In this document: in pieces, positions 3,316-21,688 of the stretch
Layout: every line of letters starts with the position of its first letter
Position numbering within the stretch: position 1 is the stretch's first letter
Source of the DNA: a virus
DNA: 21,688 nucleotides
Direction: 5' to 3' (one strand)
Virus record (IMG/VR): IMGVR_UViG_3300047371_000301
Span: 1-21,688 of that record
The notes under the pieces: generated by a model
Seen by the model: only the letters and a program-made list of their open reading frames with translations
What the model was told of the DNA's origin: nothing
Databases searched by the model: none
Position numbers and translations under genes: made by a program

Positions 3316-4863
3316 ATGGCGGCCATTGTAACAGATCAGTTTAGAATATTGAATGCGGAAAATTTTGTAAATTCCGTTACAAATACTTCTAATTCATATT
3401 ATGTCTTTGTAGGATTGGCAAATCCTACAGAAAGTGGTTTTGGAAAATCCTCTACTTGGGACACAAACACTCCAAGTCCTATTGATAACTTTGAGTATCA
3501 AGGATTTGTAAGTGATAATATGTCTTTTGGTAGGAAAATTACTTCCGCAAACGTTAGAAGAGTTGTTAGAAGAATAAATTGGGTTCAAGGAACGCGATAT
3601 GAAATGTATCGCCAAGATTACAGTATTAATAGTCTGTCTCCAGTATCTAAATCTGCAAGACTATATGATTCAAACTACTATGTAATGAATAGTGAGTTCA
3701 AAGTCTATACTTGTATTGATAACGGTTCTTCTGGTATCTCTACAACAGGCAGCGCATCTCTGGATGAACCAACCTTCACTGATCTTGAACCTTCAAAGGC
3801 AGGCGTTAGTGGTGATAAATATGTTTGGAAGTATCTGTTCTCAGTTCCTCCAAGTGATGTCATTAAGTTTGACTCTACAGAATATATCACGTTACCTAAT
3901 GATTGGGAAACAACAACCAATGCTCAGATTACTGCAGTCAGAGACAATGGTGACTCTACAGTTAATGAGAATCAGTTAAAGAAAATTTATATTGATGAGC
4001 GTGGCGCTGGTTATTCTCAAGGAACTCACGAAGTAAGTATCTTGGGTGATGGTACTGGAGGTAAAGCAATCCTTGACGTTGATGCTCTGGGAAGAATTAT
4101 TAGTGCATCAGTTTCTTCTGGAGGTAAGAATTATTCTTACGCAATGGTTGATCTTGGATCAATCAACTCTAGTTCTACAACCAAAGCAAAACTGATTCCA
4201 ATTATCCCACCCTCAAAAGGTCACGGATATGATATTTACCAGGAATTGGGTGCAGAAAGGGTTCTCCTTTATGCACGTTTTGATGATTCTACTAAGGATT
4301 TTCCAATAGATACGACAATATCTCAAATTGGTATTGTTAAAAATCCAACTTCTGTTGGTTCTACTGCAGTATTTGTGGATAATCAATATTCGTCACTGGG
4401 AGCAATCAAGTTTACGACAACTTCGGGCACTCTTGCGATAGGTGATGCTCTTAGTCAGACTGTGAGTGGTGGAACTGCTAAAGGATATGTTTTTTCATAT
4501 GACACAGAAACCAAAGTTGTTAAGTATGCTCAGGACAGATCACTATTCTTGAATCCAACAACATTTGATCAAACTGATTATGTTGGAGTGACAACTTCTG
4601 CCCGTGTTTATGAATTTGCTTCAAACGCAAACGCTGTGACTAGCGACAATGGTTTCTCAGGAACAGTTCATCAAGCATTTACTGGAGTTTCAACTAATCC
4701 AACAGGATCAAAGATTATCTCCTTAGGTGTTGTGTTTAACGATGGTGTTGCAACACCAGAGATAAATAATGGATCAGGGGATATTATTTACATTGACAAT
4801 AGACCTGCAATCTCTAGAAATTCTAGACAAAAAGAAGACATTAAAATTATCCTGGAATTCTAA
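3316..4863 (+). CDS. 8: Baseplate wedge subunit, gp8-like
   Basis: This 515-residue protein is recognised as the marine T4-like form of gp8, a wedge component that in T4 forms a dimer linking gp7, gp10 and gp6. The family signature is the N-terminal half: SNSYYVFVG near residue 27, the FVSDNMSFG region, RYEMYRQDYS at 94-103, and a tyrosine-rich SNYYVMNSEFKVY stretch. The C-terminus carries the typical DIIYIDNRPAISR...KEDIKI ending. It is longer than T4 gp8 (334 aa). Part of the extra length is a GxGY repeat pair (tyrosines at 4012 and 4132) and a SGGTAKGYV-type module at about 4440-4520. The start is the first ATG after the late promoter; a ribosome binding site is not evident. The next gene begins 3 nt after its stop. 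Confidence 0.88.
   Translation: MAAIVTDQFRILNAENFVNSVTNTSNSYYVFVGLANPTESGFGKSSTWDTNTPSPIDNFEYQGFVSDNMSFGRKITSANVRRVVRRINWVQGTRYEMYRQDYSINSLSPVSKSARLYDSNYYVMNSEFKVYTCIDNGSSGISTTGSASLDEPTFTDLEPSKAGVSGDKYVWKYLFSVPPSDVIKFDSTEYITLPNDWETTTNAQITAVRDNGDSTVNENQLKKIYIDERGAGYSQGTHEVSILGDGTGGKAILDVDALGRIISASVSSGGKNYSYAMVDLGSINSSSTTKAKLIPIIPPSKGHGYDIYQELGAERVLLYARFDDSTKDFPIDTTISQIGIVKNPTSVGSTAVFVDNQYSSLGAIKFTTTSGTLAIGDALSQTVSGGTAKGYVFSYDTETKVVKYAQDRSLFLNPTTFDQTDYVGVTTSARVYEFASNANAVTSDNGFSGTVHQAFTGVSTNPTGSKIISLGVVFNDGVATPEINNGSGDIIYIDNRPAISRNSRQKEDIKIILEF
4761..4768 (+). promoter_or_regulatory. Possible internal late promoter GATAAATA before the DUF4815 gene
   Basis: GATAAATA lies inside the 3' end of the gp8 gene, 98 nt before the next start codon. 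It matches the NATAAATA form, but another copy at 3814-3821 lies far from any start, so chance matches inside genes do occur. It is listed only because it would give the very long gene downstream its own transcript. Confidence 0.2.
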
Positions 4864-4866
4864 AAA

Positions 4867-7800
4867 ATGCCACAAAAAACGAATCTCAATATAAGCCCAT
4901 ATTTTGATGATTTTGATAAGGACGATAACTTTTATCGTGTCCTATTCAAACCAGGATTCCCTGTTCAAGCGAGGGAATTGACGACTCTGCAATCTATTTT
5001 GCAGAATCAAGTAGAAAACTTTGGTAGTCATATTTTCAAAGAAGGATCGATGGTGATCCCTGGAAATATTAGCTACGATGGTGAATATACTTCTATAAAA
5101 ATTAACTCCGACTACTTAGGAATACCTGTAACGGCGTATGTAGATAAACTAATAGGAAAGAGACTGAGGGGACAAACCTCAGGTGTAACTGCTAGTGTTG
5201 ATAAATTTCTGGATGTTTCTCCTGCAGAAGGTATCACAGATTTAACTCTATTTGTTGGATATCATAGTTCTAATGAATCTGGAGAAATTGCATCATTCGA
5301 TGATGGTGAGGTTCTGATTGTTGAAGAAGGATTTACTTACGGAAACACTTCTGTTAATGCAGGAGATGTGGTTGCTACGGTAGTATCTGAAGATTCTGCT
5401 TCTATTGGTAGTAATGTTTCTATCGGCACTGGTGTTTATTTTATTAGAGGAACATTTGTTGATGTTGCCGCAGATAAAATTGTTCTGGATGCATATAGCA
5501 ATAATCCATCCTTTCGAGTTGGTCTAGAAATTATTGAAGAACTCATCACCGCAAAGGATGATGATTCTCTATATGATAATGCAAAGGGATTTTCTAACTT
5601 TGCTGCACCAGGTGCAGATAGATTAAAGATTTCTACAAAACTTTCTAAAAAACTTCTAACTGATTACGACGACAAAACTTTTGTCGAATTACTTAGAATT
5701 GAAGATGGTGAAATAAAGAAGTTACAGAATATTTCTGTTTATAGTATTATCAAAGATTACTTTGCAAAGAGAACCTTTGAAGAGTCTGGAGACTATTCTC
5801 TTGGAAACTTTGGTGTTAGTACATCAGAGATCTTAAACGATAGAATGTCTAACGAAGGTGTATATTTTGAAGATCAAATAACTGATCAAGGTAATACTGC
5901 TTCTGAAGACCTGTATGCAGTAAAACTTTCTGCAGGAAAGGCATACGTCAAAGGATTTGACGTAGAGACTATTTCAACAACAGTTGTTGATGTAGAAAAA
6001 CCAAGGGATACAAGATCAGTATCAGATGCTTTGGTTCCATTTGAGTTTGGAACAGTATTAAGACTGAACAATGTCAATGGTTCTCCTTTCATTGGTGTTA
6101 ATAATAATGATAATATCGTAAATCTATTCAATCAAAGAAAGACAACTGCAAACGCAACTGCTGGTTCTGGAACTCAAGTTGGTAGGGCAAGAGTTTATTC
6201 TTATGGTTTGACTGATAGCGCATATTCAAATGCATCATCAAAGTTTAATCTTTCTCTGTTTGATGTTCAAACTTTTACGGAACTTACTCTCAACTCTTCA
6301 GTAACAAATGCACAACTTCCAGACTCTTCATTTGTTGAGGGTGTAAGCAGTGGTGCATCAGGTTTTGCAAATGCTCAGGGCGGTGGTAGTGCTACAGTCA
6401 ACCTTGTTCAAACAACCGGAACCTTTATTGCTGGAGAACAATTAAAAATTAATGGAACTTCTTTAGTTTCAAGATCTGTAACCAGCGTTAGAACTTTTGG
6501 TATTGAAGATGTTAAGTCTGTATTCCAAGATTCTACTGCAGTTGATTCAGAATTAAAATCTGATTTCTCTGGCGACCTAATTTTGCAGAAAAAGACTGCA
6601 CCAAACTTCAGTATTGCAGATCAAATTACTATCAGTAATGCTGGTATTGCTACAGTTGCTGGTAAAAACTTTGTTGGTATTAAGAAAGATTCAATTGTCA
6701 GATACCAGACCTCATCTCTTTCAGTTCCAACATTCAACAGAGTCTCTGCAGTTGCTGCTGATGGATTAACAATGACACTGGCAGCAACCACTGATGTTGC
6801 CAATGTTTGTGCTGGTCCTATAACTGAAGGAACAGTTAATTTTACAATTGGTGCCCCTATTGTAAGAAATAATGGTGGTATGTATGCATCTTTAGAAGAA
6901 ACTAGTGTTGCTACCGTTGGTCTTTCTGGATCAAATCTTACTGTAACCACTCAAATCAGAGAAAAGTCTACTAATGATTCTGGAGAACTGAGTCTGGTTC
7001 CTGGAGATACTGGTATTACTAGTTCTAGATATGAGACATTTGATGCTGATCGTTACTCAATTCACTATTCTGATGGAAGCATTGAAGATCTAACCTCCGA
7101 TCAGTTTAGTTTAGGAACTGATGGTAATGTCACGATCACAGGTTTGACAGCATCACAGTCAAGTAATGTTACTGTTAATGCAACTGTCAAGAAGATTGGT
7201 ATAAGCGAAAAAAGAAAAGATTACATCAGAAGTGAAAAGATTAATATTAATCAATGTAGAACTGGAGTTACAACTTCTCTGACAGGACTTACACAGAGCA
7301 ATTTCTACGGAACAAGGATTGAGGACAAAGAAATCTCACTCAACGTTCCTGATGTTGTAAAGGTTATTGCTGTCTATGAAGCACTCGATATCAATATTCC
7401 TGTATTAGATAAATTAATCTTCCCATCTGGACTTGCTCTAGATACAAATTCTATTCTTGGTGAGAAGATTCTTGGTAAGGAGACTGGTGCTCTAGCACAG
7501 ATTGTCACAAGATCTTCTGCAACAGAGGTTGAGATTGTATATCTGAATGATTCCAAATTCTCTATTGGAGAATTGGTGAATTTTGAAGAGTCAAACATCA
7601 ATTCTATTATTTCTAACATCACTATTGGTAACTATCAAAATGTAACTGATCACTATACTCTAGACAAAGGACAGAGAGAAGAGTTCTATGACTATGGACG
7701 TATTGTTAAATCCAATGATGGATATACTCCGACACGCAGACTGCTTATCATTTTTGATTATTATCTAGTTCCTAGCAATGACACCGGTGATATTTACACT

Positions 7801-10800
7801 GTAAATTCATATGATCCTGAAAGATATAAGTTTGATATTCCAACTCTTCCTAGTGAAGCGAGAGCATCTGATATTCTTGATGTAAGACCAAGAGTTACTG
7901 CCTTTGATCCTTCAACTAGTAGATCTCCATTTGATTTTGATTCAAGAACATTTGGAACCACAGGAAATAATCCAACTTTGGTTGTTGCACCTGAAGAAAG
8001 TTCGATTGTCGATTTTGCATACTATCTGCCAAGGATTGATAGGATTAGTTTGAATAAAGATGGTGTCTTTACCGTAACTAAAGGAACTTCCGCAGTAAAT
8101 CCAAAGGCACCAACTTCGGTTGATGAGGCAATGGAAATTGCAACTCTGAAGTTACCTGCATATCTCTACAATCCTGAGGACATTGAAATCACGGTTGTTG
8201 ACAATAGAAGATACACGATGCGTGACATTGGAAAAATTGAAGATAGAGTTGAAAATTTAGAAACTCTTACTTCACTGACTCTTCTTGAACTTGACACTAA
8301 GACCCTTCAAGTTAGAGATGCTGACGGTCTTGACAGATTTAAGTCAGGTTTCTTTGTTGACGACTTCAAAGATGTTAATAGAACTGATTTTGATAGTTCA
8401 GATATTGCAGTTGATAGTCGAACAAACACTTTGACAACACCTAGAGATTTCTTCTCTCTGAAACCACAGGTTGCTTTAGAACCATCAATTAATATCAACA
8501 CAGCAGATTTCAGTCAAAACCTATCTCTTTTGGACTCCAATGTTCAAAAGACTGGTGATTTAATCACTCTCAAATATACTGAAAAAGGATGGATTGAGCA
8601 ACCTCTTGCATCTAGAGTTGAAAATGTCAATCCATTCAATATGATTGACTTTACTGGAAGAATTCAACTGACTCCTGCCTCTGATAACTGGACAAGAAAT
8701 GTTTTTGTTTCTGGTGGAACTAGAAGGATCACCGGAAGTTTTAATGGATCTTTCATTGAAACAATTAAGATTTCTAGTAAACCAGACACTCACGTTAGAT
8801 CAAGAAACGTATCATTTGTTGGTGGTGGTTTAAGACCTTTAGCAAGACACTATCCTTTCTTCGATAGTGCTAGTGGTATCGATATTGCTCCAAAACTAAT
8901 TGAAATTGCAATGTCTTCTGGCGTATTCAATGTAGGTGAAAATGTTAGTGGATTTATTGGTGGAAGAAGAATATTCAGGGCAAGAGTTATTCAACCAAAC
9001 CACAAGACTGGTCAATATAATAAACCAGCAACGACTATTAGTTTGAATCCATATGATAGATCTGTAAGTCTCCCAACAACATATTCTGCATCTTCGACTG
9101 TTCTTAACGTTGACATTGAAGCACTTGCAGATGAAGTTCAGGGTCGTTATTTTGGATTTGTTCAAAAAGGTGTAGTTCTCATCGGCAATACGAGCGGTGC
9201 ACAAGCGACTGTGAGTGACGTTAGACTGTTTACGGATACATTTGGTGATGTAGGTGGTTCAATCTTCTTCAGGAACCCTCTAGCGTCTCCTCCACCACCT
9301 TTAAGGTTTAAAACTGGTACCAATGCTTACAAGTTAACTTCAAGCTCAACAAACGCAGAACCTCTCAAGGGAAGTTTGTTGATCAGTTCTGCTGAAACTA
9401 CTTATAGAGCAACGGGTATTGTTGATACCTTTAGACAAACAAGAGTTGTTGTAAGAAGACCACCTCCACCACCAGCACCACCAAGACGCCGCCGTCGCCG
9501 CCGTGGCGGAAAAGATCCACTGGCACAATCATTTACAGTGGATGAAACTGGTGCATTTATGACTTCAATTGACTTGTTCTTCGCGAACAAGGATGAAGCG
9601 GAAAAAGTTACTATTGAAGTTAGGACAGTTGAATTGGGCACACCAACAAATCAACTGGTTGATGATTTCTCTAGAGTCACTTTAGAACCTTCCCAAATTA
9701 ATACTTCAACTGATGGAACAGTTCCAACGAATGTTAAGTTCCCATCACCAATCTATTTGGAACCAAATACTGAATATGCAGTTGTTATTTTGGCACCAAC
9801 AACCAATCAATATGAGCATTGGGTTGCTAGAATGGGCGAAAGAACAGTCAACACAACCACATTGCCAAACGCTGAGAGTGTTCTTGTAACTAAGCAATAT
9901 GTTGGAGGAAGTCTCTTCAAATCTCAAAATGGAACCATTTGGACCGCAAGTCAATTTGAAGATCTTAAGTTCAAACTTTATAAGGCGAACTTCACAACTA
10001 CAACAGGAACAGCATTTTTCTATAATACACCATTAACACCCACAGATAGTAATCTGCCTAAATTGAATGCAGATTCTGTCAAAACTCTACCTAGAAGACT
10101 GAAGGTTGGTATTAGTACAACAAATACAATGAATGCCGTATTGCAAGTTGGTAGAAAGGTAAGTGATGGAACTGCAGGAAGACCTTTTGGTTTCATTGAT
10201 CAAGTTGGTGGAAGAGTCAATACATTGAGTCCTTCCATTGTAGGTGCTGGATATAGTAACGGCACATATAGTGATGTTCCACTCTATACCATTACAGGAA
10301 ACGGCAGTAACAGTAGAGCAACTGTTGTTGTTTCTGGTGGGGTAGTTTCTTCAGTTAGTCCAACCACAGACGGAAATGGATATGTAGTCGGTGACGTTGT
10401 TGGTGTTACTACTTCCAATATGGTAAAAGGACGTGGTGCAAAAATTACTGTTACTGAGTTGGACGGATTTGATACTCTGTATCTGACTGGTGTTCAAGGA
10501 CAAACTTTTGATACAGGAAACTTAGTTGTTTATGATAGCAGCACTGCCGTTTCCTATGCAAATACTGATATTTTAAGTTCCACTGTCCTAGATTCTCTGT
10601 CAGAGGGTAATGTTATTGAGGTTACTCATCATAGTCACGGTATGCATGCAAGTAACAATATTGTTACTCTGTCGGATATTGAACCAAATACAGTTTCAAC
10701 TACACTCACGTCCGAACTGTCAAACAGTGGGGGATCGATCTCTGTTGCCAATACTTCTCTCTTTGGAACATTTGAAGGTATTACAACTTCAAGAGGATTT

Positions 10801-11943
10801 GTTAAAATCAACAACGAAGTTATCTTCTATGATTCAATCACCGCAGGTGGTGGCGGATCAGGATCTCTTGGTATTGGAACAAGAGGTATTGATTCATCTC
10901 TAGTAAGATCTCATCCAAATAATTCAGAAATCTTCCCATATGAACTGAATGGTGTATCTCTGACCAAGATTAATAAGCAACATAGTATGTCTAGTAACGC
11001 ATTACTGAATGCATCACAAGATATTGATAAGTATTATCTTGAAATTGATCGTCAAGATAGAGCAAGTGGTGATACGCTTCTGTGTTTCACTAGTGATAAC
11101 CAAGTTGGTGGCGATGGTGCAGTTGGCACAAGAAACATTCAGTATAATACTCTTGAACCAAGAGTTAACGTAATTACTCCAGGTGAGGGAACATCTTTGT
11201 CTGCATCCATCAGAACAACTTCTGGTACAAGTGCTGGTGGTATTGAACCATCTTTTATTGATCAAGGATTTGAACCTATTGAATTGAATGTAGATAACTC
11301 TCTGTCTACACCAAGAATTGTTGCCTCTGAAGTCAATGAAACAACCAGATTGACAACATTGCCCAAGAACAGATCATTTACTCTGGGAATCCAGATGAAC
11401 TCTAGTGATTCAAACTTGTCACCAGTCATTGATACTCAAAATATAACAATGATCTATGGTAGAAACCGTATTAATAATCCTATTAGTGATTATACAATTG
11501 ATGGTCGTGTCAATCTGAGTAGTGAAGATCCGCATAGTTCAATCTATGTCACTAATAGAGTAGATTTGGCACAACCTGCCACATCTCTCAAGGTTCTGGT
11601 TTCTTCTTATCGACACGCATCGGCAGATTTTAGACTTCTCTATCAACTGTTTAGAACAGATTCTTCTGGTATTGAGACATCATATCAACTGTTTCCAGGT
11701 TTCAACAACCTTAATGACACTGATGGTGATGGTTTTGGCGATGAAGTAATTGATAATACTCAGAACAATGGTAGATCTGATGCGTTTGTTTCTGCAAGTG
11801 CTGATGGACAGTTCTCTGAATATCAGTTCAGTGCTGATAATTTGGAACAGTTCACTGGATTCAGAATCAAGATTGTTATGAGTGGAACTAATGAAGCTCG
11901 TTCTCCGCAGTTCAAGGACTTTAGAGCAATTGCTCTTGCTTAA
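4867..11943 (+). CDS. Giant virion structural protein, DUF4815 family (2358 aa)
   Basis: The N-terminus (MPQKTNLNISPYFDDFD, then FKPGFPVQARELTTLQSILQNQ and GSMVIPGN) is the start of the DUF4815 family, found in large tail or baseplate proteins of marine myoviruses. The family continues to the YDYGRIV and ASDILDVRPRV motifs, roughly residues 940-1020. A short predicted coiled coil follows (RDIGKIEDRVENLETLTSL, about 1119-1137). A Pro/Arg linker at 1530-1549 leads into a DPLAQSF domain (1550 to about 1660), a conserved beta-type tail module. Further on are GxGY repeats (10252, 10381), a His cluster HHSHGMH (1921-1927), an RG/ERG-type module (10741-10960) and a DTDGDGFGDE calcium-loop-like motif (2284-2293). 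It contains only three cysteines by my count. It occupies the T4 gp9-gp12 slot, so a baseplate-periphery or adhesion role is inferred. It starts 3 nt after gp8. Confidence 0.85.
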   Translation: MPQKTNLNISPYFDDFDKDDNFYRVLFKPGFPVQARELTTLQSILQNQVENFGSHIFKEGSMVIPGNISYDGEYTSIKINSDYLGIPVTAYVDKLIGKRLRGQTSGVTASVDKFLDVSPAEGITDLTLFVGYHSSNESGEIASFDDGEVLIVEEGFTYGNTSVNAGDVVATVVSEDSASIGSNVSIGTGVYFIRGTFVDVAADKIVLDAYSNNPSFRVGLEIIEELITAKDDDSLYDNAKGFSNFAAPGADRLKISTKLSKKLLTDYDDKTFVELLRIEDGEIKKLQNISVYSIIKDYFAKRTFEESGDYSLGNFGVSTSEILNDRMSNEGVYFEDQITDQGNTASEDLYAVKLSAGKAYVKGFDVETISTTVVDVEKPRDTRSVSDALVPFEFGTVLRLNNVNGSPFIGVNNNDNIVNLFNQRKTTANATAGSGTQVGRARVYSYGLTDSAYSNASSKFNLSLFDVQTFTELTLNSSVTNAQLPDSSFVEGVSSGASGFANAQGGGSATVNLVQTTGTFIAGEQLKINGTSLVSRSVTSVRTFGIEDVKSVFQDSTAVDSELKSDFSGDLILQKKTAPNFSIADQITISNAGIATVAGKNFVGIKKDSIVRYQTSSLSVPTFNRVSAVAADGLTMTLAATTDVANVCAGPITEGTVNFTIGAPIVRNNGGMYASLEETSVATVGLSGSNLTVTTQIREKSTNDSGELSLVPGDTGITSSRYETFDADRYSIHYSDGSIEDLTSDQFSLGTDGNVTITGLTASQSSNVTVNATVKKIGISEKRKDYIRSEKININQCRTGVTTSLTGLTQSNFYGTRIEDKEISLNVPDVVKVIAVYEALDINIPVLDKLIFPSGLALDTNSILGEKILGKETGALAQIVTRSSATEVEIVYLNDSKFSIGELVNFEESNINSIISNITIGNYQNVTDHYTLDKGQREEFYDYGRIVKSNDGYTPTRRLLIIFDYYLVPSNDTGDIYTVNSYDPERYKFDIPTLPSEARASDILDVRPRVTAFDPSTSRSPFDFDSRTFGTTGNNPTLVVAPEESSIVDFAYYLPRIDRISLNKDGVFTVTKGTSAVNPKAPTSVDEAMEIATLKLPAYLYNPEDIEITVVDNRRYTMRDIGKIEDRVENLETLTSLTLLELDTKTLQVRDADGLDRFKSGFFVDDFKDVNRTDFDSSDIAVDSRTNTLTTPRDFFSLKPQVALEPSININTADFSQNLSLLDSNVQKTGDLITLKYTEKGWIEQPLASRVENVNPFNMIDFTGRIQLTPASDNWTRNVFVSGGTRRITGSFNGSFIETIKISSKPDTHVRSRNVSFVGGGLRPLARHYPFFDSASGIDIAPKLIEIAMSSGVFNVGENVSGFIGGRRIFRARVIQPNHKTGQYNKPATTISLNPYDRSVSLPTTYSASSTVLNVDIEALADEVQGRYFGFVQKGVVLIGNTSGAQATVSDVRLFTDTFGDVGGSIFFRNPLASPPPPLRFKTGTNAYKLTSSSTNAEPLKGSLLISSAETTYRATGIVDTFRQTRVVVRRPPPPPAPPRRRRRRRGGKDPLAQSFTVDETGAFMTSIDLFFANKDEAEKVTIEVRTVELGTPTNQLVDDFSRVTLEPSQINTSTDGTVPTNVKFPSPIYLEPNTEYAVVILAPTTNQYEHWVARMGERTVNTTTLPNAESVLVTKQYVGGSLFKSQNGTIWTASQFEDLKFKLYKANFTTTTGTAFFYNTPLTPTDSNLPKLNADSVKTLPRRLKVGISTTNTMNAVLQVGRKVSDGTAGRPFGFIDQVGGRVNTLSPSIVGAGYSNGTYSDVPLYTITGNGSNSRATVVVSGGVVSSVSPTTDGNGYVVGDVVGVTTSNMVKGRGAKITVTELDGFDTLYLTGVQGQTFDTGNLVVYDSSTAVSYANTDILSSTVLDSLSEGNVIEVTHHSHGMHASNNIVTLSDIEPNTVSTTLTSELSNSGGSISVANTSLFGTFEGITTSRGFVKINNEVIFYDSITAGGGGSGSLGIGTRGIDSSLVRSHPNNSEIFPYELNGVSLTKINKQHSMSSNALLNASQDIDKYYLEIDRQDRASGDTLLCFTSDNQVGGDGAVGTRNIQYNTLEPRVNVITPGEGTSLSASIRTTSGTSAGGIEPSFIDQGFEPIELNVDNSLSTPRIVASEVNETTRLTTLPKNRSFTLGIQMNSSDSNLSPVIDTQNITMIYGRNRINNPISDYTIDGRVNLSSEDPHSSIYVTNRVDLAQPATSLKVLVSSYRHASADFRLLYQLFRTDSSGIETSYQLFPGFNNLNDTDGDGFGDEVIDNTQNNGRSDAFVSASADGQFSEYQFSADNLEQFTGFRIKIVMSGTNEARSPQFKDFRAIALA
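9454..9513 (+). repeat. Pro/Arg low-complexity linker with a 9-bp tandem CG-rich repeat
   Basis: Codons 1530-1549 of the DUF4815 protein read Arg2, PPPPPAPP, seven arginines, then GGK. The arginine tract contains two exact copies of CGCCGCCGT (9487-9495 and 9496-9504). This is locally very GC-rich in an AT-rich gene that otherwise mostly uses AGA for arginine. It separates the N-terminal part from the DPLAQSF domain, and the repeat structure suggests expansion by replication slippage. Confidence 0.75.
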
Positions 11944-11945
11944 TT

Positions 11946-12143
11946 ATGATTAGAGTTGAAGGGCAAAAAAATCTGTATCGGGACAATTCTGGCGCTATTG
12001 TCAATACCGATACAGAGCAATATAATCAGTATGTTAAACTGAGAGAGAGAAGGAAATTTGATAAAAAAGAAATCACTGATATCAAACAAGAAATTGAGGA
12101 ACTTAAATTACTTCTTAAGGAGGTTTTAAAAAATGGATCCTGA
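11946..12143 (+). CDS. Small conserved-type phage protein with C-terminal coiled coil
   Basis: This 65-residue protein starts 2 nt after the stop of the DUF4815 gene and shares 11 nt with the next gene. The N-terminal half contains VEGQKNLYRDNSGAIVNTD, a short module I associate with small orphans in marine T4-like phages, without a known function. The second half is charged and predicted helical (EITDIKQEIEELKLLLKEVL), with leucine/isoleucine heptad spacing that suggests a coiled coil and oligomer formation. There is no signal peptide or membrane segment. Its place among virion genes suggests a minor structural or assembly role, but that is inference from context only. Confidence 0.75.
   Translation: MIRVEGQKNLYRDNSGAIVNTDTEQYNQYVKLRERRKFDKKEITDIKQEIEELKLLLKEVLKNGS
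12117..12123 (+). promoter_or_regulatory. Strong ribosome binding site AAGGAGG
   Basis: AAGGAGG is a near-perfect anti-16S match, 9 nt before the ATG at 12133 and located inside the preceding gene. It decides that the 58-codon frame at 12133 is a real gene. It is the strongest Shine-Dalgarno sequence I see in the window. Confidence 0.75.
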
Positions 12144-12309
12144 TAGCATAGAATTGACAAATCTATCTAAAAGTTTTGAATATGCAAAAATGGCAAAAGA
12201 GTTAGAAGATTGTGATGATCGTGATGAACTTCGTAATGTTGCAAAGGCATATCTAAAACTCTATCTAAAGCAGCAAGAGGTTGTTGCGCAACTAGGTCTG
12301 TCTAAATAG
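12133..12309 (+). CDS. Small helical phage protein (58 aa), unknown function
   Basis: The frame reads MDPDSIELTNLSKSFEYAKM and ends ...VVAQLGLSK with a TAG at 12307-12309. It is supported by the AAGGAGG site 9 nt upstream and by filling an otherwise empty 185-nt space between two genes. The sequence is acidic in the middle (ELEDCDDRDE) and helical at the end (NVAKAYLKLYLKQQEVV). It resembles small orphans I recall from T4-like cyanophages at this locus, but I know no function. It overlaps the upstream gene by 11 nt in a different frame, so its translation is probably coupled. With the upstream coiled-coil protein it forms a pair of small proteins that could be a chaperone or minor virion component; this is speculation. 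Confidence 0.8.
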   Translation: MDPDSIELTNLSKSFEYAKMAKELEDCDDRDELRNVAKAYLKLYLKQQEVVAQLGLSK

Positions 12310-12328
12310 TTAAAAATATTATTAGAAA

Positions 12329-12667
12329 ATGGCAGTATATACTTCTAATATTATAGTCAACACTGGAACAGACTTTTCCCAAATTTTTACTTTAGAGGAT
12401 GGTCAAACCAATGCTGCTCTCAATTTGAGTAGTTTTGGTGTAAAAGCACAGATGAGAAAGCATCCCACTTCATCGGGAGTAACAACTTTTACTGCATCAA
12501 TTTACAGTGCTTCTAATGGTCAAATTCAGTTAGGGTTATCAACAACCACAACTTCTAGTTTGAAAGAAGGTAGGTATATGTATGATGTAGTCTTGACAGA
12601 CGCAGGAAGTATTATGAGTAGGGTTCTAGAAGGATCTGTAATGGTCACCAAAGGAGTTACTCAGTAA
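12329..12667 (+). CDS. Small virion-type protein (112 aa), unknown function
   Basis: The sequence is predicted all-beta, with no signal peptide, membrane segment or cysteine. Features include SNIIVNTGTDFSQIFTLEDG at 6-25, a V-K-A-Q-M-R-K strand near residue 38, and a repeating Gly/Ser/Thr pattern. The EGRYMYDVVLTD segment near residue 81 is like the strand before the C-terminal edge of Ig-like or jelly-roll folds. I recall close relatives at the same place in T4-like cyanophages, annotated as hypothetical or virion structural. No strong ribosome binding site precedes the ATG. The stop codon overlaps the next start as TAATG (12665-12669), so the two proteins are probably made together and may form one complex. 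Confidence 0.8.
   Translation: MAVYTSNIIVNTGTDFSQIFTLEDGQTNAALNLSSFGVKAQMRKHPTSSGVTTFTASIYSASNGQIQLGLSTTTTSSLKEGRYMYDVVLTDAGSIMSRVLEGSVMVTKGVTQ
12651..12656 (+). promoter_or_regulatory. Ribosome binding site AAGGAG
   Basis: AAGGAG lies 10 nt before the ATG at 12667, inside the preceding gene. It supports independent or coupled initiation at the TAATG junction. Confidence 0.6.
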
Positions 12668-12933
12668 TGGCAAACATCAAGGTCAGATCAAGAAATAATT
12701 CTATTGTTGTTAGAGTTGGTCAAACCAATGCAACTAAAGTTGTTGCATCAAATTCTGCTGCATCAGCAGCAGGCACACTTTTAGCTATTGCAAGTGATGT
12801 TGTTGACACTGGTCTCGCAACTAATACATTTTTAATGTATGATGGCAGTGACTATATACATGTACCTGCATCTCAGATTCTGGATCTGGCAGATACAACT
12901 GATGATGATACTATTGATTATGGTTCTTTTTAA
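12667..12933 (+). CDS. Small phage protein (88 aa), probably virion-associated
   Basis: The N-terminus (MANIKVRSRNNSIVVRVG) is a basic beta hairpin-like stretch. An Ala/Ser-rich region (VVASNSAASAAGTL) and an acidic C-terminus (LADTTDDDTIDYGSF) follow. The segment LATNTFLMYDGSDYIHVPASQIL resembles the repeat units of fibre-type proteins of marine phages, in which a value is assigned to a short beta strand. A preceding AAGGAG and the TAATG overlap with the upstream gene support the start. The function is unknown. The location just before the fibre-like gene suggests a minor tail or fibre-attachment component, which is inference. The 69-nt gap after it carries the next late promoter. Confidence 0.78.
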   Translation: MANIKVRSRNNSIVVRVGQTNATKVVASNSAASAAGTLLAIASDVVDTGLATNTFLMYDGSDYIHVPASQILDLADTTDDDTIDYGSF

Positions 12934-17635: not shown

Positions 17636-18681
17636 TGTTAGGCAATTATTTTTATCACGAGATCATTAGAAAGACTATCATTGGTTTTGGTACTCTCTTC
17701 AATGGCATTTCAATTCAGCACAAAAATGAACAAGGACAAGTTATCAGTGATCAGAAAGTTGCTTTAGCATATGGACCTGCACAGAAATTTTTAGCAAGAA
17801 TTGATCAGCAAGCAAATTTAAATAAAGCTGTTCAGATAACACTGCCAAGAATGTCATTTGAGATGACATCTTTAGAATATGATTCCTCAAGAAAAGCAGG
17901 AATTACTCAAACCTTTAAGACTACAAATAATAGTCAAATGAAAAAGGTTTATATGCCTGTTCCATATAATATTGGTTTTCAATTGAATATTTTCTGCAAG
18001 TTAAATGATGATGCTTTGCAGATTGTTGAGCAGATTCTTCCATATTTTCAACCATCATTTAATATTACAATTAACTTAGTAGATTCTATTGGCGAAAAGA
18101 GGGATATTCCTATAATTTTGAACAATATTTCAATGCAGGATGATTATGAGGGAGACTTTAGTAGTAGAAGAGCATTAATATACACACTGAACTTTACTGC
18201 CAAAACATATCTATTCGGTGGAATTGCTGATAGTCCAGAAGGTCTTATCAAAAAAGTTACTGTGGACACTTATGCTTCTACCAATACGAAGACTGCTACA
18301 AGGCAGATGCGTTACGTTGTAACTCCTAAAGCGAAGAAAGATTATGATAATGATCAAACTGGAGATCTTACTCTAACAATTAATGATACAGAGACTTTAA
18401 TTCCTGTTGTAGATAGTTCCAATTTTGAAATAGGAAATAGAATTATCATAGATAATGAGATAATGTATGTTGACTCTATTCCAACTTCTACTCAACTTTA
18501 TGTTGAAAGAGGTTATGACTCAACAGTTAAGGCAACGCATTTGAAAAATGCAATTATCAATCTACTTACTGCTGCCGATGATGTATTGATTGAACCAGAA
18601 GATGATTTTGGTTTCAATGAATCCTTTACATATCTTGGTGATAGCAAAGCATACAGTCCCACAAGAAAAATTGATATCTAA
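17635..18681 (+). CDS. 15: Tail completion / sheath stabilisation protein gp15
   Basis: The 348-residue sequence is recognised as gp15, which in T4 (272 aa) forms the terminator ring at the head-proximal end of tube and sheath and joins the tail to the neck. Signatures are MLGNYFYHEIIRKTIIGFGT, LARIDQQANLNKAVQITLPR, the VYMPVPYNIGFQLNIFCK strand near 103-120, INLVDSIGEKRDIP, and LNFTAKTYLFGG near 190-200. Residues about 245-312 are an extra module (GNRIIIDNEIMYVDSI, then LYVERGYDST) shared with two other virion proteins in this window, inserted before the typical acidic EPEDDFGF C-terminus. This explains the extra length. It starts at the gp14 TAATG overlap and is followed after 5 nt by gp16. 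Confidence 0.9.
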   Translation: MLGNYFYHEIIRKTIIGFGTLFNGISIQHKNEQGQVISDQKVALAYGPAQKFLARIDQQANLNKAVQITLPRMSFEMTSLEYDSSRKAGITQTFKTTNNSQMKKVYMPVPYNIGFQLNIFCKLNDDALQIVEQILPYFQPSFNITINLVDSIGEKRDIPIILNNISMQDDYEGDFSSRRALIYTLNFTAKTYLFGGIADSPEGLIKKVTVDTYASTNTKTATRQMRYVVTPKAKKDYDNDQTGDLTLTINDTETLIPVVDSSNFEIGNRIIIDNEIMYVDSIPTSTQLYVERGYDSTVKATHLKNAIINLLTAADDVLIEPEDDFGFNESFTYLGDSKAYSPTRKIDI

Positions 18682-18686
18682 CTATT

Positions 18687-19130
18687 ATGTCTAAATTTGA
18701 CGCTATTGATGATGCACTTAATGTGGAGAGTAGTATTGTAGAAAAAGAAAAACACGTTCCTATTAAAAGACCGGAAGAAAATACTCATATACAAAAGGAC
18801 TATGAGTACACTCGTGCCAATTTATATTCTTTAATAGAAAAGGGTCAAGAAGCAATTAATGGAATTATGGAACTTGCAGGTGAAAGTGCAAGTCCTAGAG
18901 CATATGAAGTTGCTGGACAGTTAATTAAAAGTGTTGCAGATACAACTGATAAACTAGCAGATCTTCAAAAGAAACTCAAAGATCTTGAAGAAAATAATAC
19001 TAAGAGTGGTCCTAACAGTGTTACCAACAATGCAGTGTTTGTAGGGTCTACAACAGAACTACAAAAACTATTAAAACAAGGTTTTCTAAATAGTAATACT
19101 ACCAATTCTAATAAGAATGAAAAAGTGTAA
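18687..19130 (+). CDS. 16: Terminase small subunit gp16
   Basis: The 147-residue protein lies between gp15 and gp17 as in T4 (164 aa). The small terminase recognises or holds the viral DNA and regulates the ATPase and nuclease activities of gp17 during headful packaging. The N-terminus is acidic and probably flexible. The centre (YTRANLYSLIEKGQEAINGI, then YEVAGQLIKSVADTTDKLAD and QKKLKDLEE) is predicted helical with a coiled coil at about 72-107, the oligomerisation core of T4-type small subunits. The C-terminal VFVGSTTELQKLLK (117-130) is a motif I recognise in T4-like small terminases, probably for contact with the large subunit. Its 3' end overlaps the next gene by 14 nt. Confidence 0.9.
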   Translation: MSKFDAIDDALNVESSIVEKEKHVPIKRPEENTHIQKDYEYTRANLYSLIEKGQEAINGIMELAGESASPRAYEVAGQLIKSVADTTDKLADLQKKLKDLEENNTKSGPNSVTNNAVFVGSTTELQKLLKQGFLNSNTTNSNKNEKV

Positions 19131-20595
19131 GCAGGGTTATTACTACTGCCATACTGATAAAAAGTGTAAGCGAATCCCTGGTGGATATCGTGTAGGTCTA
19201 GGTGGTTATCTCCGTAGAGAAAGAGAAGAAGAAAAGTCTGAAGATAATAGTGAAACCGAAACTAAGAAGAATGGAAATGGCAATGTTTCTAATGGCAATG
19301 GTAATGGCAATGGTGGTAATGGTAATGGGAGTGGCTCTTCTGGATCCAACGGTGGTAATGGAGGAGGAGTAAGCGAAGGTTTGAGTAGCAAATATATGAA
19401 AAGTATTGTAGAAAGTGACGGCAAGTCTTCTAAGGATAAAGGATATTCTCTTCGTGATTGGTTTAAGGGTGGTGGATGGAAACAGACTGGTGGTAAGTAT
19501 GATGGGAAACCTTGTGCAAAACAACCAGGACAGAAAACAAAACCATATTGTCGTGATGCAGATGACCGTGCATCAATGAGTAAAGATGAAAGAAACAAAC
19601 GTGCTTCTAAAAAGAGAGCAGAAGATCCAAATCCAACTAGAAAAGGGAAGGCAAAAATCGTGACTCAAGAATCTTATTCAAACTGGAGAAAAGACTTAGA
19701 ACAACTTGATGAGTTTTTAGCTGGTAAACCCGGTGATGGATATATTGGACATCCCAATCTAGATATCAAGAATCCTCTCGCCAAAAAACAAGTTAAAAAA
19801 GAAGTTTTACCTGGATCTAAGGGTGGTGGTGTAGTCAACAGAGTTGGTGCTGCATTGGGTGATAGAAATATGAAATATAATAAAATGTTGAATCAATCAT
19901 TTGAACCAGAAGGTGAACTAGTTGATGAGGGTAAGAAAGATGCTTGTTATAATAAGGTCAAGTCTCGTTATGATGTATGGCCTTCTGCTTATGCTTCTGG
20001 TGCTTTAGTCAAGTGTCGTAAGGTTGGCGCTAAAAACTGGGGGAACAAAACCAAGAAAGAAGAGTTTGAACTTGGCGAATCAAAGAAAGATAAATTGAAA
20101 GAAATTTCATCACAATTGAAAGGTGCATCTAAACTGCATTCACAGCAATCTAAAAAAGTTTCTGCTGTTGCTGATGCTATTGAAGAAGCAAAGAAGTGCT
20201 GGCCTGGATATGAAAAGAAAGGCACCAAAAAAATGTTTGGTAAGACCTATAACAACTGTGTGAAGAAAGAAGGTTTCTCTAACTGGAGAGATAATTATAT
20301 TCCAACTGATTATGAAACTACAAACTTGATCACCAATCAAGATGTTCTTGGAGAAGACTGGACAAAAAAGTCCGGTAAGGATCCAGAGGGTGGATTAAAC
20401 GAAAAGGGCAGAAAGTCCTATGAGCGTGAGAACCCTGGATCTGATCTCAAGAGACCTTCGAAAGAAGTTGGTAATAAGCGTAGATCATCATTCTGTGCAA
20501 GAATGAAGGGAATGAAAAAGAAACTAACTTCTTCCAAAACTGCTAACGATCCAAACTCAAGAATAAATAAATCATTGAGAGCTTGGAATTGTTGA
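19117..20595 (+). CDS. Cys/Lys-rich modular protein between the terminase genes
   Basis: This 492-residue protein has no T4 counterpart. Visible modules: an N-terminal Cys motif (CKQGYYYCHTDKKCKRIPGG, Cys 4, 11, 17); a Gly/Asn linker (about 52-84); LRDWFKGGGWKQTGG with two further cysteines (112-172), which I associate with DUF5872; an SNWR motif (188-191); KDACYNKVKSRYDVWPSAYA (273-310, two cysteines); CWPGYEKKG...NNC (361-381); a second SNWR (388-391); and a C-terminal module from DPEGGLNEKG to RAWNC (422-492) with FCARMKGMKKKL and TANDPNSRINK, which I associate with DUF6321. The DUF names are from memory. It is strongly basic, has eleven cysteines by my count and no signal peptide or membrane segment. 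The start overlaps gp16 by 14 nt. DNA- or metal-binding, or a capsid-internal role, is possible but unproven. Confidence 0.82.
   Translation: MKKCKQGYYYCHTDKKCKRIPGGYRVGLGGYLRREREEEKSEDNSETETKKNGNGNVSNGNGNGNGGNGNGSGSSGSNGGNGGGVSEGLSSKYMKSIVESDGKSSKDKGYSLRDWFKGGGWKQTGGKYDGKPCAKQPGQKTKPYCRDADDRASMSKDERNKRASKKRAEDPNPTRKGKAKIVTQESYSNWRKDLEQLDEFLAGKPGDGYIGHPNLDIKNPLAKKQVKKEVLPGSKGGGVVNRVGAALGDRNMKYNKMLNQSFEPEGELVDEGKKDACYNKVKSRYDVWPSAYASGALVKCRKVGAKNWGNKTKKEEFELGESKKDKLKEISSQLKGASKLHSQQSKKVSAVADAIEEAKKCWPGYEKKGTKKMFGKTYNNCVKKEGFSNWRDNYIPTDYETTNLITNQDVLGEDWTKKSGKDPEGGLNEKGRKSYERENPGSDLKRPSKEVGNKRRSSFCARMKGMKKKLTSSKTANDPNSRINKSLRAWNC
19270..19368 (+). repeat. Gly/Asn low-complexity tandem repeat
   Basis: Imperfect AATGGC/AATGGT hexamers encode alternating Asn-Gly and then Gly/Ser, residues about 52-84 of the modular protein. 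This is a flexible linker between the N-terminal Cys motif and the rest. The hexamer repetition makes it prone to length variation by slippage. Confidence 0.75.
20562..20569 (+). promoter_or_regulatory. Possible late promoter AATAAATA before gp17
   Basis: AATAAATA lies in the last codons of the preceding gene, 33 nt before the gp17 ATG. This distance is like that of the stronger late promoters at 3290 and 15146. It matches NATAAATA but not the preferred first T, so confidence is modest. Confidence 0.3.
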
Positions 20596-20602
20596 TTAGT
20601 TT

Positions 20603-21688
20603 ATGAGTGAAGTATATCTTGGTAATCCGAATTTAAAAAAAGCAAATACGGAGATTGAATTTACAGAGGATCAAATCATTGAGTTCCTCAAATGTAAAGA
20701 AGATCCTGCATATTTTGCTAATAACTACATTAAAATTATTTCACTTGATGAGGGTCTAACACAGTTTCATCCATATGATTTTCAAGAAAAATTAATTCAT
20801 AATTTTCATAACAACAGATTCAACATCTGTAAGATGCCACGTCAGACTGGCAAATCTACGACTGTGGTATCATATTTACTTCATTATGCAGTTTTTAACG
20901 ATAGTGTAAATATTGGCATTCTTGCTAACAAAGCAGCAACAGCTAGAGAATTATTAAGCAGACTGCAAACTGCATATGAGAACTTGCCTAAATGGATGCA
21001 GCAGGGTATACTATCCTGGAATAAAGGATCGATGGAGTTAGAGAATGGGAGTAAGATACTGGCATCTTCTACGTCTGCAAGTGCTGTCCGAGGCATGTCG
21101 TTTAACATCCTCTTCCTCGACGAGTTTGCGTTCGTTCCAAACCATGTTGCAGACTCGTTCTTTGCATCTGTTTATCCTACTATTACTTCTGGCAAAAACA
21201 CCAAAGTAATTATTGTATCCACGCCACATGGTATGAATCACTTCTACCGTATGTGGCACGATGCAGAAAAAGGTAAAAATGAATACATACCAACCGACGT
21301 TCATTGGTCTGAAGTCCCCGGTAGAGATGATGTTTGGAAGGAACAGACTATTGCCAATACTTCTGAGCAGCAGTTTAAAGTTGAGTTTGAGTGTGAGTTC
21401 CTTGGATCAGTCAATACACTAATCAATCCTGCGATTCTTAAAAATCTTATCTATGAAGATCCTATCAAAAAGAATGCTGGGTTAGATATATACGAAGAAT
21501 ATAAACCGGAACATAACTACCTTCTTACTGTCGATGTTGCTCGTGGGTTGGGTAAAGATTATTCCGCATTTATCGTATTTGATATTACAGAATTTCCATA
21601 CAAAGTAGTTGCAAAATATAGGAATAATGAGGTAAAACCAATGTTATTCCCAAATATTATACAACAAACCGCGAAAGGGTATGATAAC
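20603..21688 (+). CDS. 17: Terminase large subunit gp17 (3' end missing)
   Basis: The first 362 residues are present; the frame is open to the last base. This is the packaging motor ATPase and headful nuclease. Visible motifs: PYDFQEKLI (adenine-binding Q-motif type, near 60); Walker A RQTGKST (80-86); Walker B ILFLDE (169-174) with Glu174 as the catalytic glutamate; and VIIVSTPHGMNHFY, the ATPase coupling motif. The nuclease domain begins with LLTVDVARGLGKDYSAF, where Asp311 matches the first catalytic aspartate of T4 gp17 (Asp401). Walker A lies about 80 residues nearer the N-terminus than in T4 (about 161-167), so the N-terminal region is shorter. The start is the ATG at 20603, 7 nt after the preceding stop, MSEVYLGNPNLKKANTEIEF; no Shine-Dalgarno sequence is visible. 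The rest of the nuclease domain is outside the window. Confidence 0.95.
   Translation, partial: MSEVYLGNPNLKKANTEIEFTEDQIIEFLKCKEDPAYFANNYIKIISLDEGLTQFHPYDFQEKLIHNFHNNRFNICKMPRQTGKSTTVVSYLLHYAVFNDSVNIGILANKAATARELLSRLQTAYENLPKWMQQGILSWNKGSMELENGSKILASSTSASAVRGMSFNILFLDEFAFVPNHVADSFFASVYPTITSGKNTKVIIVSTPHGMNHFYRMWHDAEKGKNEYIPTDVHWSEVPGRDDVWKEQTIANTSEQQFKVEFECEFLGSVNTLINPAILKNLIYEDPIKKNAGLDIYEEYKPEHNYLLTVDVARGLGKDYSAFIVFDITEFPYKVVAKYRNNEVKPMLFPNIIQQTAKGYDN

Follow-up and report, generated by a model that had tools for sequence, protein, structure and literature searches.

Introduction

In bacteriophage T4, the gp21 protease removes a propeptide from the N-terminal region of gp23. The internal proteins of this phage enter the prohead by means of a 10-residue sequence, in which residues 4 and 7 of IPIII serve targeting and residues 8 and 10 serve cutting, and gp21 cleaves after L/I-x-E (PMC9026906); the cut positions of T4 Alt are ITE-6 and LTE-619 (PMC5694885). 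One internal protein, IPI, inhibits a host restriction enzyme (PMC3012670). In cyanophages, the interval between gp16 and gp17 is a known insertion hot spot that houses unrelated genes (PMC3037559). In the open-access literature that we searched, the terms "capsid targeting sequence" and "cyanophage" occurred together only in a review of T4, and no mention of DUF6321 was found.

We describe here an open reading frame, X, in a 21,688-nt stretch of viral DNA (IMG/VR record IMGVR_UViG_3300047371_000301), which is referred to below as the window. X belongs to T4-GC119 / phrog_727, a cyanophage family that is known by name but uncharacterised. We propose, as a reading with an even chance of being correct, that X would be a prohead-targeted head precursor, cut by gp21 into basic beads that would remain with the DNA and might be injected; we infer the cutting and targeting from sequence patterns. 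If this is true, a hypothetical gene becomes a testable delivery system, cyanophage proteins that are packed into heads obey a readable sequence rule, and there is a route by which the cyanophage enzymes of virion proteomes could get into particles.

Results

ORF X and its gene neighbourhood

A first-pass annotation of the window had noted a Cys-rich ORF of 492 residues between gp16 and gp17. We found the ORF to be open, and Pfam and PHROG matches confirmed the 2 neighbours, as follows.

18687..19130 (+): gp16, terminase small subunit (PF11053, phrog_445)
19117..20595 (+): X, 492-aa bead-string protein of the T4-GC119 / phrog_727 family (open ORF, homologues)
20603..21688 (+): gp17, terminase large subunit, continuing past the window end (PF03237, phrog_2)

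X overlaps gp16 by 14 nt, as had been noted, and ends 7 nt from the start of gp17. The predicted protein (54.5 kDa, pI 9.7, Lys+Arg 21%) has 11 Cys residues, at positions 4, 11, 17, 133, 145, 277, 300, 361, 381, 460 and 492; our recount also upheld the earlier comparison with the 2358-aa ORF, which has 3. The nearest named relative of gp17 is that of Synechococcus phage S-SKS1 (88.6% identity). No copy of the T4 late promoter TATAAATA was found near X, and the window total was 2 vs 1.4 expected. At window positions 19360-19383, within the Gly linker of X, we observed a purine-rich, ribosome-site-like run, GGAGGAGGAG, before an in-frame TTG (19381); an internal start there could give an X product that lacks the first module (M1, below). 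Also, at window positions 18328-18675, gp15 is extended on its C-terminal side relative to S-SSM5 (348 vs 261 aa), and it contains a small module with weak similarity (E 0.006) to a segment of the window's first ORF.

X matched the phrog_727 profile over aa 101-492 (E 1.7e-109; profile positions 106-430 of 450), and the T4-GC119 proteins of S-SM1 and S-SSM5 align to X aa 111-492. The family gene has the same gp16-gp17 placement in S-SSM5, S-SM1 and S-E7. Altogether, 510 phage records match X; most are phages of Synechococcus and Prochlorococcus, and the rest include phages of Pelagibacter and further marine phages. Searches of Pfam, NCBIfam and PHROG with X gave no packaging-family match, and a search against anti-defence profiles gave no match at all. 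S-SZBM1_190, a "virion structural protein" between terminase genes, was considered as a relative and found to be unrelated to X.

The synteny that the first-pass annotation had pointed to is strongly conserved: on viral contigs, gp16 lies upstream in 54/80 loci and gp17 downstream in 56/80, and the loci without a visible gp16 or gp17 neighbour are mostly at contig ends. Of the 56 loci with gp17, 34 have it 6-15 nt beyond the end of X. Most relatives have a gp16-X spacing of -8 to +29 nt; in other relatives it can be as long as 4.6 kb, and the overlap seen in the window is not general. It should be noted that, because the gp16-gp17 interval is an insertion hot spot, location alone is no proof of a packaging role.

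Beads and linkers of X

AlphaFold2, with 39 sequences, modelled X as five folded beads with disordered linkers between them, in a model of low overall score (mean pLDDT 57.6, pTM 0.22). The beads, M1 to M5, and the linker elements are listed here; a slash marks a putative cut position.

19117..19224 (+): bead M1, aa 1-36, Cys 4/11/17, predicted beta strands, pLDDT 85-91 over the first 30 residues (profile, model)
19225..19416 (+): Gly/Asn-rich disordered linker, aa 37-100, with VSE87/G and IVE99/S upstream of M2
19432..19662 (+): bead M2, aa 106-182, Cys 133 and 145 (profile, model)
19675..19689 (+): linker motif YSNWR, aa 187-191, followed by LDE199/F (sequence motif)
19930..20052 (+): bead M3, aa 272-312, helical hairpin, Cys 277 and 300, with VDE271/G immediately before (profile, model)
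20188..20274 (+): bead M4, aa 358-386, beta hairpin, Cys 361 and 381, with IEE357/A immediately before (profile, model)
20275..20289 (+): linker motif FSNWR, aa 387-391 (sequence motif)
20356..20592 (+): bead M5, DUF6321, aa 414-492, Cys 460 and C-terminal Cys 492, with LGE413/D immediately before (Pfam, profile, model)

M5 modelled alone gave a helical bead with a confident C-terminal half (pLDDT 86-91). A separate profile search for each module, as had been suggested earlier, found M1 to M5 in 41, 77, 80, 74 and 74 proteins of viral contigs, and all 11 Cys were invariant (100%) across these matches, three in M1 and two in each of M2 to M5. The small modules of the first-pass annotation, which had counted at least five with two or three Cys apiece, are thus recurrent units, each found in 41-80 viral loci, and their recurrence, their invariant Cys and their stable location run contrary to the three outcomes that it had named as telling against it: degenerate low-complexity modules, unconserved Cys and a variable location.

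Its likening of the modules to small metal- or DNA-binding units is weakened, as far as metal is concerned, by the same profiles, since two or three invariant Cys per bead are too few and no invariant His was found in any bead among the matches on viral contigs. We considered a zinc finger or zinc ribbon and rejected it: no module has four invariant Cys/His ligands, and zinc binding by a single bead is unsupported. At least two modules had also been associated with uncharacterised DUFs. A virus DUF was confirmed for M5, which matched DUF6321 (PF19846) at 79.1 bits vs a gathering cut-off of 28.5 (72/72 positions, aa 420-490). M1 to M4 of X had no Pfam match, and a second DUF was found only as domains inserted in the linkers of relatives, DUF192 in 9/39 and DUF3008 in 4/39. 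The DUF192 inserts (best E 5e-29) are probably those of loci L041, L050, L083 and others.

The usual bead order is 1-2-3-4-5 or 2-3-4-5, and the permuted orders 2-4-3-5 and 4-2-3-5 were also found on viral contigs. M4 is duplicated in some relatives, and highly variable linkers give the family a length range of 282 to 1247 aa. M5 also occurs as a standalone gene, which follows that of the major capsid protein in podovirus P-SCSP1g and is placed two genes past the capsid gene in pelagiphage HTVC115P.

X has no sequence relative in the PDB. A structure search with the whole X model gave insignificant matches only, the top ones being alpha-defensins around M4 (E 1.9, Z 2.0), and the M5 model alone had no Foldseek match; with models as modest as these, such a lack of fold matches does not show that a fold is new.

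In S-SKS1 (HQ633071; locus L001, 2766-5328), the deposited gp15 and bead protein are both fragmented, probably by sequencing errors. We had considered this split gene as a natural "pre-cut" form of X and dropped the idea, because gp15 is broken too and M4 looks to have been lost by frameshift. A cellular origin was likewise rejected: the M3 matches in GTDB were nearly all on short contigs of MAGs, and one of these (L110) is a gp15-gp16-X-gp17 phage fragment. In a record titled as a WOR-3 chromosome (CP070664.1; L122, 7381-9681), three adjacent ORFs begin ESWRKFIQEA, DKWKQFLEEE and ESWRTYMSEA, and one of them has an M3-like bead and the sequence SSLRDWF; this region is probably phage DNA inside a bacterial assembly.

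Relatives of X in virion proteomes

S-SCSM1_29 (42662-44215), which lies in the terS-terL interval and has the same beads as X, carries a virion-protein annotation; the virion proteins of that genome were set by mass spectrometry (MS), and its terS and terL have no such annotation. Two bead proteins of S-CREM2 are in its published MS virion table: gp137, an M5 protein encoded between terS and terL (4 peptides, 4.1% coverage), and gp160, which has the beads M2-M4-M3 and a gene elsewhere in the genome (7 peptides). The authors themselves caution that strong expression could lead to co-purification. Neither TerS nor TerL is in that table. Also, the MS-detected protein S-SZBM1_139 has an M4 bead (E 3.4e-13) and the C-terminal end QQTYSWRREMGVDE, and S-SZBM1_192, an M5 family member, was undetected by MS. 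These published data, which concern relatives and not the phage of the window and comprise few peptides, with possible co-purification, indicate that X is very probably a virion protein, and a position inside the head is likely.

From location, the first-pass annotation had drawn a packaging, head-vertex or ejected-protein role. A virion or ejected role is the part best supported, by relatives and bead-sharing proteins in three virion proteomes; a place in the packaging motor, drawn from location alone, was not supported. If X were a packaging accessory acting together with gp16 and gp17, such as a factor that loads DNA or regulates the motor, this would account for the constant slot between the terminase genes, often 6-15 nt ahead of gp17, and for basic beads that could bind DNA. 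We nevertheless regard such a role as improbable: relatives of X are in virion lists and TerS and TerL are not, the slot says little in an interval where unrelated genes are inserted, and the M5 gene also follows the capsid gene in podoviruses.

A candidate cut-site pattern before the beads

We observed that beads are frequently preceded by a hydrophobic residue, any residue and Glu (phi-x-E), as in VDE/GKKDACY, IEE/AKKCW and LGE/DWTKK of the window and LQE/GAAWTKK, VSE/SKSGD and LDE/KCWKGY of relatives. In counts restricted to the 14 residues preceding the bead core, [LIVM]xE[GASDKEN] was found upstream of M2, M3, M4 and M5, which are four unrelated bead types, in 56, 78, 86 and 47% of dereplicated cases; the controls were 15% for random linker 15-mers, 10-28% for shuffles and 7% for bead interiors. 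With one protein per M5 type, the corresponding counts were 27/45, 38/54, 54/61 and 29/56, where the related phages counted in these motif surveys are non-independent samples. The strict T4 form, [LI]xE[GASD], was found before 5-31% of beads vs 4% in linkers, a rarity which means that P3 must tolerate V or M. In gp160 of S-CREM2, where the order is permuted to M2-M4-M3, there is a site ahead of every bead (LSE/A, LEE/K, ISE/G). Near the N terminus of cyanophage gp23 we observed LTE/A, LTE/T or LAE/A. Cleavage was not apparent in the data consulted, and by this pattern it may equally well be that X is cut between its beads or that it is not.

If X is not cut, it could be a virion protein that lies internally or associates with the shell, in the form of a flexible basic string that condenses DNA or stabilises the head, in which the pre-bead Glu would be part of the bead. 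The presence of relatives in virions requires no cleavage, both the beads and whole X are strongly basic, and the Glu lies near the bead cores and moves with the beads when these are reordered. We consider the uncut string unlikely, with about one chance in a few, because the hydrophobic-x-E motif is common to four unrelated bead types, and because the standalone M5 proteins of podoviruses and pelagiphages start at the bead and do not have the motif, which is easier to reconcile with a processing site than with part of the fold.

Motifs resembling the capsid targeting sequence

The N terminus of X (MKKCKQGYYYC...) has no match to [FYW]xx[FYW][LIMVF]xE in its first 16 residues, and X is therefore not classed as a T4 internal protein. 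We tried an N-terminal T4-type capsid targeting sequence (CTS) as a general trait of the family and rejected it, as it was not enriched (2 vs 2.9 by chance). The M5 protein S-SZBM1_192 has the N terminus MKTFKQYITEAKNC (MKTFKQYITE/A), which is near-identical to the starts of T4 IPI (MKTFKEF) and IPIII (MKTYQEFIAEA). We also observed that the N-terminal stretch of S-CREM2 gp160 (L099, 4843-5736), GATGFTGAAAPEGPVAGYDPLM, closely resembles the N-terminal region of gp23 of the same phage (GADGFTGAAAPGGPNAGFDPVM).

Within the linkers of the family, S[ND]WR occurs 73 times, vs 0.3 in shuffles, in 42/84 members only. F or Y precedes it in 63/73 cases, to give an aromatic-xx-aromatic spacing like that of T4 CTS residues 4 and 7, and phi-x-E lies within a few residues after about half of the longer SNWR-type matches. 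In our first survey SNWR was absent from S-SM1, so the motif is not universal.

A regular expression for the N-terminal or linker form was run on the annotated genomes with MS data, S-SCSM1 and S-CREM2. It gave 4 matches in S-SCSM1, 3/4 virion proteins (p 0.016), and 6 in S-CREM2, 5/6 virion proteins (p 0.003), with a pattern that was partly framed on proteins later counted (three S-SCSM1 matches; S-CREM2 gp136, gp154 and gp155), so that the fresh matches are limited to a SAM hydrolase and a kinase, both virion proteins, and a pectate lyase, which is not one. Among the matches in the 2 phages are an NMNAT/cytidylyltransferase, a SAM hydrolase and a kinase. The N-terminal form alone matched 5/577 ORFs of T4, two with the internal-protein start shown above for IPIII, and its sole match in 150 kb of S-SM1 was the T4-GC190 cytidylyltransferase, which is an MS-detected virion protein (Sullivan et al. 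2010).

T4-type CTS starts, such as MKNFSSFLTE/A, MKSFLQFLKE/A and MRFRQFIIE/A, were observed on cyanophage enzymes that are found in virions (SAM hydrolase, APH-like kinase, NMNAT/cytidylyltransferase), and also on S-CREM2 gp136. The genes with such starts lie at 3837-5081(-), 10579-12846(-), 107301-108014 and 124608-125468 of S-CREM2 (OR473000), 88819-90048 of S-SCSM1, 148256-149419 of S-SM1 and 80389-81477(-) of S-SZBM1. In T4 (NC_000866), a small 54-aa ORF at 18966-19130 (-) has the CTS-like start MKTFKEFIKEDMVAGD. T4-type CTS starts may be a general cyanophage cargo code.

These motifs also bear on whether X decorates the outside of the virion or is associated with the tail, with disulfide-stapled beads exposed to sea water. 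Two-Cys beads with no further invariant ligands would suit stable extracellular modules, and genes neighbouring the S-SCSM1 relative are annotated as tail fibre proteins. The phi-x-E sites and CTS-like motifs point to the prohead interior instead, and no decoration protein is visible by cryo-EM in P-SCSP1u, a member of a phage group in which a standalone M5 gene follows the capsid gene; we consider an external position very improbable.

Discussion

In the precursor reading, the aromatic-xx-aromatic motifs in the linkers of X ([FY]S[ND]WR) would draw the protein into the prohead core during assembly, and some relatives would enter by a true T4-type N-terminal sequence. Cleavage by gp21 after the phi-x-E motifs ahead of the beads would then release small basic beads of ~30-80 aa, each possibly stapled by its own Cys, with at most one Cys pair each (M1 has three Cys). 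The beads would stay among the packaged DNA and would probably accompany it into the host in the manner of T4 internal proteins. We infer the targeting, cutting, DNA contact, injection and disulfides from sequence features, and taken on its own merits the injection of beads into the host is a possibility that we hold with some doubt. Coating or condensation of DNA is one function that the beads could have; another could be a role in the host similar to that of T4 IPI.

A broader and more tentative suggestion is that marine T4-like phages may have an open-ended head polyprotein, in which beads and cargo such as DUF192 are placed between gp21 sites and internal targeting motifs, to be loaded as one chain, cut at maturation and delivered together with the DNA; the same code would mark the NMNAT/cytidylyltransferase, the SAM hydrolase and the kinase.

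The bead anatomy, the cut-site pattern and the link to a targeting code appear to be new, and to be a variant of the T4 internal-protein system. The closest described relatives, those of T4-GC119 / phrog_727, are like X in sequence and in their place between gp16 and gp17; the family has no assigned function, and we did not find its bead and cut-site anatomy described in the literature searched. DUF6321 (PF19846) covers one bead, M5, among the five of X, and no relative of M5 was found in the T4 genome. In the reading proposed here, X would resemble T4 IPI, IPII, IPIII and Alt in being basic, packed into the head and supplied with gp21-type sites. The T4 internal proteins, however, have a single domain and one N-terminal CTS, whereas X is a string of several beads with putative internal sites and no N-terminal CTS. 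The prohead-protease substrates of SPN3US and phiKZ (PMC5694885) would share with X the presence of several cut sites per precursor, cleavage after x-x-E and an ejected cargo, but in those phages long propeptides are carried on single mature proteins, whereas the whole chain of X would split into beads.
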